Of a stretch of 64,000 nt of DNA, positions 5,859 to 62,071 are shown one piece after another; positions within the stretch are counted from its first letter, which is position 1; each line of letters opens with the position of its first letter. The notes beneath the pieces are model-generated. The model was not told the DNA's origin. It saw nothing but the letters and a program-made list of their open reading frames with translations, and did no database searches. Source of the stretch: Sulfurovum sp. GTDB lineage: Bacteria; Campylobacterota; Campylobacteria; Campylobacterales; Sulfurovaceae. The stretch lies in contig JAMORY010000027.1 in NCBI GenBank assembly GCA_027063305.1, positions 124,001 through 188,000 of the forward strand. Direction: 5' to 3'. A program made the translations under genes and the position numbers.

Positions 5859-5886
5859 TTAAAAATTAAAAATTAAAAATTAAAAA
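5859..5886. repeat. Solo heptamer array, four perfect TTAAAAA units
   Basis: Four perfect copies of TTAAAAA fill the space between alr and the following small gene. The strand bias (A-rich on plus, host gene on the left) matches a left arm of the compound elements, but no adjoining hairpin or right arm is seen. The same heptamer occurs in the array at 24271-24301. Confidence 0.7.
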
Positions 5887-5897
5887 TGGAGCAGAGC

Positions 5898-24267: not shown

Positions 24268-24715
24268 AAGAAATTAAAAATTAAAAATTAAAAATTAAAA
24301 ACTTATAGGCAGTATACATGCAAAAAGAGAATGTCTTACATACAAAGAGCTATGCATTTTCCATCAGAATCGTTAATTTTGCTCGATATTTAAATGGCGA
24401 AAAAAAGAGTATATTTTAAGCAAACAAGTATTACGCTCCGGCACGGCAATATGTGCACTTGTGAGCGAAGCAGAATTTGCACAGTCACATGCTGACTTTA
24501 TCAATAAACTGACCGTTGGGCTCAAAGAAGCCAACGAAACAAAATACTGGATCAACCTACTTCATGATACACAATACATTTCACAGAAAATGTACAAAAG
24601 TCTCATTAAAGGATATTAAAGAGATAATAAGCTTATTAGTCTCTATCATCAAAAAGCTCAAAAACAGAAGCATTTCGTAAAGAAATGCATATCAACATTT
24701 TTAATTTTTAATTGA
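24268..24715. mobile_element. Decayed compound element with a four-helix-bundle pseudogene
   Basis: Left array of AAATTAA heptamers (24271-24301), a frameshifted four-helix-bundle gene on the plus strand, hairpin GCATTTC/GAAATGC (24670-24688, followed by ATATC in place of ATACC), and a right array ATTTTTA (24697-24714). The arms are inverted copies of one another in heptamer identity. No clear host fold-back is visible at either edge, which fits an old insertion. Confidence 0.7.
24318..24680 (+). pseudogene. Frameshifted four-helix-bundle protein gene
   Basis: ATG 24318 opens MQKENVLHTKSYAFSIRIVNFARYLNGEKK, which stops early at a run of seven A (24399-24406). Adding one base restores EYILSKQVLRSGTAICALVSE and FAQSHADFINKLTVGLKEANETKYWINLL. 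A second shift near 24610 is needed to recover the final helix (KDIKEIISLLVSIIKKL). Two independent shifts make decay more likely than programmed frameshifting or one sequencing error. The order of conserved segments matches the intact copies. Confidence 0.8.
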
Positions 24716-51870: not shown

Positions 51871-51994
51871 AATGAGTAATGAGTAATGAGTAATGCGTAA
51901 TGAGTAACCGAAAAGGTTGCCTAATAGAAGCATTGTACAACAATGCATACCAACATTACTCATTTGTATATGTAGCGCATGCGCTACATATACA
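51871..51994. mobile_element. Compound heptamer element with a 30-bp palindrome at the fabG end
   Basis: Left array TAATGAG (51871-51906), small hairpin AACC/GGTT, hairpin GCATTGT/ACAATGC (51930-51946) ending GCATACC, short right array ATTACTC (51954-51964), then a perfect loopless 15+15-bp palindrome (51965-51994, half-site TGTATATGTAGCGCA) that includes the last codons and stop of fabG. The interior is very short. Confidence 0.8.
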
Positions 51995-52727
51995 TTCCAC
52001 CGTTGACTTTCAGCGTCTCACCCGTAATGTAAGAAGCATGGTCGGAGAGAAGGAACGCTGTGGCCTCGGCAACCTCTTTAGGGTCTCCGAAACGCCCCAT
52101 CGGGATTTTTGCTGTAAAGGCATCTTTGACCTCATCTTTAAGTACATCTGTCATCTCTGTTGCGATGAAGCCCGGTGTAACGGTATTGTAGCGGATGCTT
52201 CTAGGCGCAGCTTCTTGTGCAAAGCTCTTTGTCATTGCAATGGTTCCGCCTTTGGATGCGGCATAGTTCGTCTGACCCGCATTCCCTGTCTCACCTACAA
52301 TAGAAGCGATGTTCACGACCGCACCAAAACGCTTCTTCCCCATCACCTTCAAGGCTTCACGACACCCGATGAAGGTCGATTTGAGGTTTGCTTCGATCAC
52401 TGCCATGAACTGCTCACTCTTCATACGCATAGCCAGTCCGTCTTTGGTGATCCCCGCATTGTTGACAAGATAACTTAGCTCACCGTCAGCCTCGACGATC
52501 TGCTTGATCGCAGCCACGAACGCCGCTTCATCACTCACATCGAACCCGATCGTCTCCGCTTTTCCTCCTGCCGCCTCAATATCAGCTTTTACCGCTTCTG
52601 CTTCTGCTTCACCGCTTCGGTAGTTCACCCATACCTTCAATCCCATGCCTGCCAATGTCTTTGCGATCTGCGCCCCGATACCGCGGCTTGCACCTGTTAC
52701 CAATACGTTATTACCTGTAAATTTCAT
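51984..52727 (-). CDS. fabG: 3-oxoacyl-ACP reductase
   Basis: A 247-residue short-chain dehydrogenase: nucleotide motif TGASRGIGAQIAKTL, NNAG, catalytic Ser in NIASIVGETG and Tyr-Lys in YAASKGG. It reduces beta-ketoacyl-ACP with NADPH. AAGGAAAAG precedes the ATG. Its last codons lie in a long palindrome. Here it is separated from acpP-fabF-accA by the copper block. Confidence 0.95.
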   Translation of the reverse strand: MKFTGNNVLVTGASRGIGAQIAKTLAGMGLKVWVNYRSGEAEAEAVKADIEAAGGKAETIGFDVSDEAAFVAAIKQIVEADGELSYLVNNAGITKDGLAMRMKSEQFMAVIEANLKSTFIGCREALKVMGKKRFGAVVNIASIVGETGNAGQTNYAASKGGTIAMTKSFAQEAAPRSIRYNTVTPGFIATEMTDVLKDEVKDAFTAKIPMGRFGDPKEVAEATAFLLSDHASYITGETLKVNGGMYM

Positions 52728-56100: not shown

Positions 56101-56565
56101 AATGAGGAATGAGGAATGAGGAATGAGGAACCGAAAGTAAATGACCCTTTAAGCCAAAAAAGTTTCTTTTTTGCTTTACGTATTGTTAAACTCTGCAAAT
56201 ATCTTCAGTCTGAACATAAAGAGTATATTCTCTCAAAACAGATATTACGAAGTGGTACAGCCATAGGTGCCCTAATCGCAGAGGCTAAATATACACAATC
56301 AAAAGCAGACTTTCTCAACAAACTTATGATAGCACTAAAAGAAACGAATGAAACCAAATATTGGATCAACCTTCTCTATCATTCAGAATACCTGTCTGAT
56401 AAAATGTATCAGAGTCTATTACCTGAAATTGAAACTCTTTTAAAACTTCTTATTGCCAGCACAAAAACTACTAAAAAGGTCAACCCATAATGTTATCTAC
56501 TTTCTCCTCTATCGGTTACTCATTACTCATTACTCATTACTCATTTAAAGATCCAAAGGATTTTT
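56101..56565. mobile_element. Full compound element with four-helix-bundle gene, between mraY and murD
   Basis: Left array TGAGGAA (56101-56130), the four-helix-bundle gene reading right, right array TACTCAT (about 56513-56546), and an 8-bp fold-back AAAGATCC (56547-56554) pairing with 56558-56565 (one G-T) over the murD ribosome-binding site. The left junction shows only a weak pairing with the mraY end. The paired GGTATGC-type hairpins are not evident here. Confidence 0.75.
56116..56490 (+). CDS. Four-helix-bundle protein (IVP/Avd-like family)
   Basis: A 124-residue protein with SFFFALRIVKLCKYLQ, EYILSKQILRSGTAIGALIAE, KYTQSKADFLNKLMIALKETNETKYWINLL and a C-terminal ASTKTTKK. The ATG at 56116 lies in the heptamer array. 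Repeats of TGAGGAATG provide both an AGGA and an ATG at suitable spacing, so the array seems to act as the translation start. Its first five residues (MRNEE) are array-encoded. Closest in the window to the copy at 61657. Confidence 0.88.
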   Translation: MRNEEPKVNDPLSQKSFFFALRIVKLCKYLQSEHKEYILSKQILRSGTAIGALIAEAKYTQSKADFLNKLMIALKETNETKYWINLLYHSEYLSDKMYQSLLPEIETLLKLLIASTKTTKKVNP

Positions 56566-56566
56566 C

Positions 56567-57850
56567 ATGAAGCCCACATTATTCGGCTACGGTCTGACAA
56601 CCAAAGCGATCGCCAAAAAGCTCGGCGGTGGCTGTACCTTCTTTGACGACAACTGTAAAGAACCCTACACCGATGCGATGGGAAACCGCATACTCCCCTC
56701 ACACCTCTTCGATCCCAATACCAGCCAACTAGAGATCACCACACCAAGCCTACCACCCAAACACCCGCTTATTCAAAGTGCCAAACACCTGCTGAGCGAG
56801 TATGATTATTTTCTTAGCGACCCATCTCAAATAGAAGCATTGCAGAGCAATGCAAACCAACACTCCTCACTCCTCACTCCTCACTCCTCACTATCCAAAC
56901 CGTTCACAGTTTGGATCTCAGGTACCAACGGAAAGACCACCACTACCCAAATGCTCACATACCTGCTGGAAAAACGTGGAGCCGTTAGCGGCGGGAATAT
57001 CGGCACACCGCTGGCGGACCTGAGAGAAGATGCTCCTATCTGGGTGTTGGAGACAAGCTCTTTTACCCTGCATCATACCAAGTTCGCTTCGCCCGATATC
57101 TACCTGCTGCTGCCCATTACCCCCGACCACCTTGACTGGCACGGTACGCCTGAAGCGTACGAAGCGGACAAGCTCAGACCGCTTCGTACCATGAAAGAGG
57201 GAGAGCTGGCACTGGTCCCCAAAGGCTTGAACCTGCCAAAAACCGATGCGTATATCGTAGAGTATGACACTAACGACTTCCTCTGCGACTATTTTAACCT
57301 CGATGCATCAAAACTCAACTATAAGGGGGCTTTTCTACAAGATGCTCTGCTCTCCATTGCCATCACCAAAGTGCTTTTCGATGAGACCGACTACGACCTG
57401 CTTAACACCTTCAAGCGTGATGCCCACCGTCAAGAGGAGTTCACCGATGCACAGGGCAGGCTTTGGGTCAACGACTCAAAAGCCACGAATCTCGATGCAA
57501 CGGTACAAGCGGTATTGACCTATCAGGACCGCCCGATACATTTGATCATCGGCGGGGATGACAAAGGTGTCGACCTCACACCGCTCTTTGAGACCGTCAA
57601 ACCGCTTTCACTTACATTATATAGTATCGGTGCCAATATGGAAAAGGTTCAAAGACTCGCAACGCACTATGACATCCCTCTAGTCTCCTGCAAGACACTG
57701 GAAAATGCTATCAAGCAGATCGATACGGTGCACACCAGTGAAAGTGTCGCGCTCCTCTCACCTGCGGCGGCGAGTTTCGACCAGTTCGACTCATATAAAC
57801 ACAGAGGCGAATGTTTTAAAGCACTGCTTCAGAAACTTTCCGACTCATAG
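56567..57850 (+). CDS. murD: UDP-N-acetylmuramoylalanine-D-glutamate ligase
   Basis: A 427-residue Mur ligase adding D-Glu. ATP loop ISGTNGKTTTTQM (about 118-130), ETSSFTLH and NDSKATNLDAT are present. About residues 91-117 ([21 protein letters not shown] and following) are encoded by half of a heptamer element inserted in frame between the N-terminal UDP-binding domain and the ATP loop. The enzyme otherwise appears complete. Confidence 0.93.
   Translation: MKPTLFGYGLTTKAIAKKLGGGCTFFDDNCKEPYTDAMGNRILPSHLFDPNTSQLEITTPSLPPKHPLIQSAKHLLSEYDYFLSDPSQIEALQSNANQHSSLLTPHSSLSKPFTVWISGTNGKTTTTQMLTYLLEKRGAVSGGNIGTPLADLREDAPIWVLETSSFTLHHTKFASPDIYLLLPITPDHLDWHGTPEAYEADKLRPLRTMKEGELALVPKGLNLPKTDAYIVEYDTNDFLCDYFNLDASKLNYKGAFLQDALLSIAITKVLFDETDYDLLNTFKRDAHRQEEFTDAQGRLWVNDSKATNLDATVQAVLTYQDRPIHLIIGGDDKGVDLTPLFETVKPLSLTLYSIGANMEKVQRLATHYDIPLVSCKTLENAIKQIDTVHTSESVALLSPAAASFDQFDSYKHRGECFKALLQKLSDS
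56837..56916. repeat. Right half of a heptamer element inside murD
   Basis: Hairpin GCATTGC/GCAATGC (56837-56853) followed by AAACC, CTCCTCA array (about 56861-56892) and fold-back ATCCAAAC (56893-56900) pairing with GTTTGGAT (56909-56916). This is identical in plan to the right halves upstream of priA and ssrA. It is translated through in frame. Confidence 0.85.
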
Positions 57851-60325: not shown

Positions 60326-61654
60326 ATGCCAAAAAAACTCCACCTCGTCAGCCTCGGCTGTACCAAGAACCTAGTAGACTCCGAAGTGATGCTCGGAAGG
60401 CTAAAAAGCTATGAGATCACCGATGACAATACCGATGCCGATGTGATCATCGTCAATACCTGCGGATTTATCGATGCGGCTAAAGAGGAGAGCATCAACA
60501 CCATCCTCAACCTGCATGACGAACGCAAAAAAGACTCCGTACTGGTCATGGCAGGGTGTCTGAGCGAACGCTACAAAGAAGAGCTGATGCAAGAGCTTCC
60601 CGAGATCGACATCTTCACCGGTGTGGGTGACTATGAGAAGATCGATGCGCTCATTGCACAAAAACAGAGCAGTTTTTCACCTGAGGTCTATCTGGCTACG
60701 GAGAACAGCGGCAGGGTCATTACCGGCTCTAGCTACCATGCCTACATCAAGATCGCCGAAGGGTGTAACCAGCAGTGCAGCTTCTGTGCCATCCCAAGCT
60801 TTAAAGGCAAACTCCACTCCAGAAGCCTCGGGTCGATCGTCAAAGAGGTCAGCAACCTTGCCAAAGAGGGCTTTTACGACTTCTCGTTCATCTCTCAGGA
60901 CTCCTCCAGCTACGGAAGGGACATGGGCATGAAAGATGGACTTAGAGAGCTTATCAAAGCAGTAGAAGCGATTAAAGGTGTTAGAAGTGCCCGCATCCTC
61001 TACCTCTACCCAAGTACCACCACATTCGAGCTTATCGATGATATTGCTAACTCACATATCTTCCAAACCTACTACGATATACCTATCCAGCACATCGATG
61101 ACCGCGTATTAAAGACCATGAAGCGTGGTTTTGGAGAGAAACAGACCATCGCCTTGCTTGAACATATGAAAAGCAAGAACAATGCCTTCATCCGCACCTC
61201 TGTCATTGCAGGACACCCAGGAGAGACGCAGGAGAGCTTTGAAAAGCTCTGCCGTTTCATGGAAGATTTCGGTTTTGACCGTTTCAACACCTTCCACTAC
61301 TCCAACGAAGAGTCCACCACCGCCTATGAAATGGAACAGATCCCCAAAGAGATCATCGAAGAGAGAGCCGCTATTTTAGGCGAGATCGCCGAGGAGACCA
61401 CCAAACGCTCTTTAGAGAAGATGGTAGGCAAAACCGTAGAACTCGTCATCGACGGCGAAAGCGACGAACACGAATTCCTGCTTAGTTCCAGACCGCTACA
61501 GTGGGCTGTAGATATTGACGGAGAGATCCTCGTCAATGACACGAATGATCTTTCTGTAACATACGGAAAAGTCTATGAAGCCAAAGTGACGGAACTTGCG
61601 GGAATGCAGCTTTTGGCAACACTATTTAGTGAGGAAGCAGGAAGCAGGAAGTAG
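60326..61654 (+). CDS. rimO: Ribosomal protein S12 methylthiotransferase
   Basis: A 442-residue radical-SAM enzyme thiomethylating Asp of S12. The N-terminal cluster cysteine is in SLGCTKNLVDSEVM, the radical-SAM triad in EGCNQQCSFCAIPSFKG, and a C-terminal TRAM-like domain follows. The last residues SEEAGSRK are encoded by the heptamer array of the adjoining element; its TAG stop lies in the array, 2 nt before the next gene. Confidence 0.95.
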   Translation: MPKKLHLVSLGCTKNLVDSEVMLGRLKSYEITDDNTDADVIIVNTCGFIDAAKEESINTILNLHDERKKDSVLVMAGCLSERYKEELMQELPEIDIFTGVGDYEKIDALIAQKQSSFSPEVYLATENSGRVITGSSYHAYIKIAEGCNQQCSFCAIPSFKGKLHSRSLGSIVKEVSNLAKEGFYDFSFISQDSSSYGRDMGMKDGLRELIKAVEAIKGVRSARILYLYPSTTTFELIDDIANSHIFQTYYDIPIQHIDDRVLKTMKRGFGEKQTIALLEHMKSKNNAFIRTSVIAGHPGETQESFEKLCRFMEDFGFDRFNTFHYSNEESTTAYEMEQIPKEIIEERAAILGEIAEETTKRSLEKMVGKTVELVIDGESDEHEFLLSSRPLQWAVDIDGEILVNDTNDLSVTYGKVYEAKVTELAGMQLLATLFSEEAGSRK

Positions 61655-62071
61655 GAGTGAAAGAGAGTGTTTTATTGGAAAAAAGTTTAGATTTTGCTTT
61701 ACGCATTATCAAACTTTCCCGCTATCTACAACAAGAACATAAAGAATACATTCTTTCAAAACAGATCGTACGCAGTGGAACAGCCATTGGTGCATTAATA
61801 CGAGAAGCCCAATATGCACAATCGAAAGCTGACTTTTTACATAAACTCACAATTGCACTAAAAGAGACGAATGAAACCAAATACTGGCTTCAATTATTAG
61901 TTAGGTCAGATTATATTAACCAAAACATGTTTCAAAGTATCGAACCGGATGCAGAAGAGCTTTTAAAGCTTCTTATTGCCAGCACAAAAACAATTAAAAA
62001 CACTATCTAAATATGCAGATCTCACTCCTACCTCCTACCTCCTACCTCCTACCTAATAAAAAGAATCTTTT
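61620..62071. mobile_element. Full compound element with four-helix-bundle gene, between rimO and tilS
   Basis: Fold-back CACTA/TAGTG (61620-61631), left array AGGAAGC (61631-61655), the four-helix-bundle gene, right array CTCCTAC (about 62023-62054) and fold-back AAAAGA/TCTTTT (62059-62071). rimO terminates inside the left array and tilS begins just before the right array, so the element forms one continuous translated operon with its hosts. No GGTATGC hairpins are seen. Confidence 0.78.
61657..62010 (+). CDS. Four-helix-bundle protein (IVP/Avd-like family)
   Basis: A 117-residue protein starting at GTG 61657 with array-derived GGAAG and GGAG as ribosome-binding sequence. Core: SLDFALRIIKLSRYLQ, EYILSKQIVRSGTAIGALIRE, QYAQSKADFLHKLTIALKETNETKYW and ASTKTIKNTI. 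The start is 2 nt after the rimO stop and the stop is 2 nt before tilS, so it is translated as part of this operon. Confidence 0.88.
   Translation: MKESVLLEKSLDFALRIIKLSRYLQQEHKEYILSKQIVRSGTAIGALIREAQYAQSKADFLHKLTIALKETNETKYWLQLLVRSDYINQNMFQSIEPDAEELLKLLIASTKTIKNTI

Follow-up and report, generated by a model that had tools for sequence, protein, structure and literature searches.

The murD gene of the Sulfurovum sp. genome GCA_027063305.1, of which we analyzed a window of 64,000 nucleotides (contig JAMORY010000027.1, positions 124,001 to 188,000 of the forward strand), carries within its reading frame a short insert composed of a hairpin, a heptamer array, and a fold-back. The gene (56567 to 57850 of the window, + strand, as are all features located below) is full length and encodes 427 aa; in a profile search its product matches TIGR01087 at 306.9 bits (cut-off, 211.95) over residues 4 to 422, and a genome search returned one full-length murD match in the whole 2.03 Mb, making it a single-copy gene. 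The junction between mraY and murD, which spans 16 to 27 bp in most relatives whose junction lacks such an element, is here occupied by a complete element (56101 to 56545) consisting of an (AATGAGG)n array at 56101 to 56130, a gene for a four-helix-bundle 23S rRNA-intervening sequence protein (IVP; 124 aa, 56116 to 56490), and a (TTACTCA)n array at 56516 to 56545. This IVP scores 94.3 bits against PF05635 and 101.1 bits against TIGR02436, with 2rld as a relative in the PDB (E value of 1.7e-33), and a search of the whole collection with the protein returned five close relatives.

The insert within murD begins with the eroded left part of the element (56810 to 56836, delimited from the inserts of L010, L011, L012, and L025 to L027), which lacks a purine heptamer array where relatives have one of GGAGCAG or GGGAAAA. 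It continues with a terminal hairpin, GCATTGC-AGA-GCAATGC (56837 to 56853; arms at 56837 to 56843 and 56847 to 56853), a hairpin-to-array spacer with the motif AAACCAA (GCATACCAAC/GCAAACCAAA, 56854 to 56860) that is constant among the copies compared, and a right array of 32 bp, CACTCCTCACTCCTCACTCCTCACTCCTCACT (56861 to 56892), that reads (ACTCCTC)4-ACT with a period of 7. The array leads into a fold-back (56893 to 56916) formed by a new arm, ATCCAAAC (56893 to 56900), and a native arm, GTTTGGAT (56909 to 56916), the latter coding for a conserved VWI and retained in relatives with an empty site, where the new arm is absent. Because 7 is not a multiple of 3, the array read in frame yields a heptapeptide cycle, TPHSSLL. 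The copy itself contains neither an open reading frame (ORF) matching PF05635 nor a GTAG foot. An earlier note, made from the sequence of this stretch, had placed the hairpin, a CTCCTCA array, and the fold-back in the murD frame and had predicted a seven-residue repeat; the coordinates and the repeat are confirmed, and controls exclude chance. An AlphaFold2 model built on the MurD alignment (mean predicted local distance difference test score [pLDDT] of 80.7) places the insert in a loop directly ahead of the P-loop strand, that is, just before the ATP loop as the earlier note had it; residues 92 to 110 are the only segment with a pLDDT below 50 and are thus the only predicted disordered segment.

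In 29 readable relatives, we examined the linker bounded by the conserved SEYD and SGTNGKT motifs. It spans 37 residues in the window's MurD, 12 residues in 10 same-genus relatives (e.g., YFDKEMPFSIWI), 14 in one, and 26 to 52 in the remaining 18, whereas the rest of MurD aligns without gaps of such size. The inserted part therefore amounts to about 25 residues, within the 20 to 27 that had been estimated, and the remainder of the enzyme is intact, as had also been claimed. The proposal that relatives might reveal a unique insertion is borne out in part: the segment is an insertion relative to the ten 12-residue linkers, but it is not unique, as 18 of the 29 linkers have at least 26 residues. 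The complete form, a left purine array followed by a hairpin and a right pyrimidine array, occupies the same linker in G002, G009, G030, G032, and G034, with partly decayed left arrays of the GGGAAAA, GGAGCAG, or GAGCAGC type and a hairpin of GCATCGC-AAA-GCGATGC or a variant of it. Four further linkers (L018, L019, L021, and L024, in G013, G015, G021, and G024) hold unrelated palindromic repeats of the GTAGGGTG type, and the MurD linker is therefore a site where insertions from several repeat families are tolerated.

On a MurD tree that excludes the linker, filled and empty linkers are interspersed, requiring 11 changes over six groups, and all relatives that group with the window are filled. 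The earlier note had considered the murD copy one-ended, with only a right half present. In that form this is not supported, as the left array, eroded in the window, occurs in relatives at the corresponding position; judging from these sequences, the window's copy is probably a two-ended element that later lost its left array, which is the simpler reading because relatives hold the full form and the window's tree group is filled throughout. No stop codon occurs in the left arrays seen within MurD, whereas each of the 19 listed pyrimidine-type units has one in its reverse complement, a pattern that selection for survival in a frame that is essential would produce. In G009 (L012), a second element is situated at the 5′ end of murD in addition to the linker copy; the native start is missing, and the second element encodes an in-frame N-terminal extension of the protein (MNTPSKKASQSDAYQNSS...).

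Across the genome, the hairpin pattern returns 20 matches (reversed control, 0), and period-7 runs number 17 in the window versus 0.0 in Markov controls. Hairpin stems vary between constant flanks, AATAAAAG and CATACCAACACT, with 16 different stems among 26 copies that had been selected for having a stem; when a stem was not required for selection, one was present at 22 of 25 motif-bearing ends. In the 455 kb of sequence on which the array statistics for this genome are based, 24 of 47 arrays are 30 to 33 bp long, and 12 of 46 arrays lead into a fold-back stem of 8 bp or longer (0.5% of random positions), the outer arm usually being the coding or ribosome-binding sequence of the neighbor and differing from site to site. 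Fold-backs of at least 7 bp likewise occur at 12 of the 25 motif-bearing ends (null, 1.3%). One miniature form without a gene (51871 to 51995) consists of an (AATGAGT)n array, a 26-bp core, a hairpin, a short right array, and a perfect fold-back; another array, with the fold-back AAAATGC-TAC-GCATTTT (1479 to 1525), ends a few bases upstream of the tmRNA gene (1529 to 1894). The miniature copies have the hairpin, AAACC motif, and arrays in common with an element of the same genome (L039) in which hairpin, IVP gene, and both arrays are joined, and the same combination lies between mraY and murD at L014. The murD insert is, very probably, the hairpin end of such a non-autonomous copy of an IVP element, comparable to a miniature inverted-repeat transposable element (MITE).

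A second in-frame array of this genome, HSHLTPHSSLLT, occurs with its own fold-back in L133 (12418 to 13383), within an ORF of 321 aa for a CobD/CbiB-like protein (named by eye from its sequence). Other unit types include A+T-rich (TTAAAAA) and AGCGTTT arrays, some of which exceed 75 bp (window positions 5859 to 5887 and 24271 to 24301; L139, 13579 to 13691; L143, 7095 to 7170); arrays of the AGCGTTT type bound the IVP locus L040.

Complete IVP elements measure about 430 bp and consist of inverted heptamer arrays of about 30 to 33 bp around the IVP gene, those of Sulfurovum also carrying a hairpin inside one array or both. A second example in the window (61632 to 62054) has an (AGGAAGC)n array, an IVP gene, and a (CTCCTAC)n array. 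Across Campylobacterota, period-7 arrays lie on both sides of 15 of 54 IVP loci (0 of 3,000 random positions) and on at least one side of 29 of 54 (4.5% of random positions). Heptamer units differ among the elements of one genome, and within an element, the left unit and the reverse complement of the right unit differ by a mean of 0.44 mismatches, versus 3.38 between elements. Among 37 genomes of the genus, the number of arrays rises with the number of IVP genes, with a rho of 0.87 in the 18 best genomes.

The association extends to other phyla. Plasmid IVP genes with adjoining heptamer arrays are found in Nostoc, Dolichospermum, Anabaena, Euhalothece, Planktothrix, Bernardetia, Treponema, and Chlorohelix, representing Cyanobacteriota, Bacteroidota, Spirochaetota, and Chloroflexota, and by inspection the arrays form inverted pairs at about 10 of 12 such loci. 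These genes occupy tight junctions such as the gap between cas2 and cas1, where an array-bounded IVP gene is situated in L203 and L213 (Anabaena cylindrica and Nostoc plasmids); on two other Nostoc plasmids (L214 and L215), cas2 and cas1 are adjacent with no insert. The IVP genes of L194, L201, and L204 adjoin restriction, BREX, or DISARM genes. Two Nostoc pairs of filled and empty sites involve loss of target DNA and no target duplication. In Nostoc sp. C052 (L197/L206), the element of pC052_A stands in place of 188 bp found in pC052_D, and in L205/L210, the element of Nostoc N6 takes the place of 328 bp in a DNA cytosine methyltransferase gene for which pC052_C has an intact copy (L212 likewise has an IVP element substituting part of this gene); the left junction of the empty pC052_C site holds one CAATTCG, which is the array unit. 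A third pair, at the mraY-murD junction (L016/L020), has a 315-bp element remnant in G034 and none in its sister G035. Several breaks between sister pairs are too rearranged to be read as empty sites, and the flanks of the Bernardetia, Planktothrix, Nostoc HK-01, and Nostoc ATCC 53789 loci yielded no usable empty site.

The anatomy of the elements, their association with IVP genes in several phyla, the repeated occupation of the MurD linker, the fold-backs, and the target loss in two pairs are the observations from which we derive an overall explanation that we consider moderately probable, namely, that the murD insert stems from a mobile IVP element of the kind described here. That such elements spread via annealing and template switching is the more tentative part, to which we give less than even chances. 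Spread would require no encoded nuclease; a single-stranded end with repeated heptamers could pair, in any of many registers, with short homologous stretches at a target that is broken or stalled, perhaps aided by IVP, which is related to Avd, an accessory protein of retroelements. DNA synthesis would then finish the junction with the loss of some target DNA, and an occasional snap-back during synthesis would generate the fold-back arm. In murD, survival would be limited to in-frame, stop-free copies in the flexible linker. On a broader scale, it is conceivable, although we would not give it even chances, that a single class of mobile elements, with inverted heptamer arrays as ends, has the IVP genes of five or more phyla as its coding part and spreads without a transposase or reverse transcriptase (RT), by IVP-assisted annealing and template switching, and that the heptamer repeats known for decades from cyanobacteria and other bacteria are termini or relics of such elements.

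Several points weigh against this explanation. No transposition event was observed, and the linker types (filled, empty, or other) were assigned by eye. The two Nostoc pairs, on which the annealing step depends together with one clear microhomology, are plasmid paralogues rather than strict orthologues, such that the direction of change in them is inferred; the G034/G035 junction shares only GAT, possibly a 3-bp duplication. The correlation of arrays with IVPs ignores phylogeny, and the arrays flanking IVP genes themselves add to the array count. Moreover, some IVPs have no detectable arrays, and G007, G025, and G033 (all less than 90% complete) have arrays but no detected IVP.

Among the alternatives, it is extremely improbable that the MurD segment is an ordinary fast-evolving, low-complexity linker grown by replication slippage without any mobile element. 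The length and sequence of the linker do vary across the genus, it is predicted to be disordered, and heptamer arrays can expand by slippage, but we reject the simple form of this explanation as largely refuted because the same hairpin, AAACC motif, and array recur at many noncoding sites of the genome; in addition, the linkers of other species hold full array-hairpin-array forms, and the murD array ends in a fold-back, as noncoding copies do. Nor does it seem at all likely that the arrays and fold-backs are host regulatory sites (e.g., for translational control upstream of genes), with the murD copy being incidental. Many arrays do lie at gene starts, many fold-backs contain a Shine-Dalgarno sequence or start codon, and the TAACTGA repeats discussed below provide a precedent, yet array positions differ between relatives, arrays pair as inverted copies around IVP genes, and copies are also found within coding sequence and at the ends of genes. 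A narrower alternative concerns one step only and is compatible with the identity of the insert proposed here: the fold-back may have preexisted, the element having inserted beside a hairpin-forming target. A short native AAAC-GGA-GTTT is present at the mraY-murD junction of G035, and 23S intervening sequence (IVS) elements sit in rRNA helices; the new arm is, however, missing from empty MurD linkers, and new arms match the downstream gene start or other flanking sequence, differently at each site. We consider this order of events rather unlikely.

Two candidate drivers, Y1 transposase and RT, were tested against array counts in the same 18 genomes and are set aside, since neither count follows the arrays (rho of 0.16 and 0.006, respectively). 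Movement in trans by a Y1 transposase of the type associated with bacterial repetitive extragenic palindromic (REP) elements (RAYT) would agree with the REP-like hairpins in small repeats, the Y1 proteins present in the genus, and the GTAGGGTG-type palindromes in the same linker of four species; we consider it quite unlikely, as no Y1 match was obtained in G020 (35 array matches) or G034 and the arrays, including the murD copy, are unlike REPs with their GTAG foot. Still less do we expect retrohoming as in diversity-generating retroelements (DGRs), in which IVP would act as Avd with an RT in trans and the fold-back as the target stem-loop. Avd is a reported homologue of PF05635 (PMC10053308), and low-scoring PF05635 matches adjoin RT genes in G028, G038, and G046, but arrays and IVPs are numerous in the complete genomes G016, G020, and G024, which lack any RT match, and neither RT, template, nor variable repeat is apparently needed. 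What the elements do have in common with MITEs is the short, gene-less copies whose ends match those of the coding element L039 of the same genome. As to target duplication, the two Nostoc pairs show none and the G034/G035 pair only the shared GAT.

In comparison with known systems, the elements resemble the IVSs of 23S rRNA that contain an ORF for an S23p/IVP protein, such as that of Coxiella burnetii (about 430 nt with a 28-bp terminal stem), which have long been suspected to be mobile (PMC4990558). Protein family, size, and, in the complete form, terminal inverted repeats of similar length enclosing the ORF agree, whereas the elements described here are located outside rRNA, at gene junctions (e.g., the mraY-murD gap) and inside genes, and have heptamer-array termini, gene-less miniature copies, and target fold-backs. 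As to the small in-frame insert at a tolerated position (here, the murD linker and the CobD/CbiB-like ORF), the best parallel is the Rickettsia palindromic elements (RPEs), described as in-frame inserts in protein genes (Ogata et al. 2000, as cited in PMC10969869). Going by that description, their sequence and structure appear to differ, and a gene-bearing partner element is identifiable in the same genome here.

The TAACTGA heptamer repeats of Beggiatoaceae, cyanobacteria, and Bacteroidetes, for which a role in regulation has been proposed, are direct repeats located mostly at gene starts, some of them in frame and encoding heptapeptide repeats, including one in MurG; the main text of that report does not mention an intervening-sequence or four-helix protein (PMC4679880). 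Heptamer direct repeats and in-frame copies are common to both systems, but here, inverted array pairs surround IVP genes and many different heptamers occur. Among open-licence PMC papers, we found none linking heptamer repeats to IVP or four-helix-bundle genes and none joining 23S IVSs, TAACTGA repeats, and RPEs. Heptanucleotide tandem repeats known as short tandemly repeated repetitive (STRR) sequences are common in Nostoc and relatives, and based on the Nostoc plasmid loci, we propose that they are linked to IVP elements.

These findings offer a concrete origin for two features that have been poorly explained, the heptamer repeats abundant in many bacterial genomes and the widespread IVP proteins. 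They also present the rare case of an essential enzyme into which several lineages have incorporated the end of a mobile element at one flexible linker, so that tolerance to added peptide segments can be tested there. If the proposed mechanism is true, the IVP element would be mobile without having its own recombinase.
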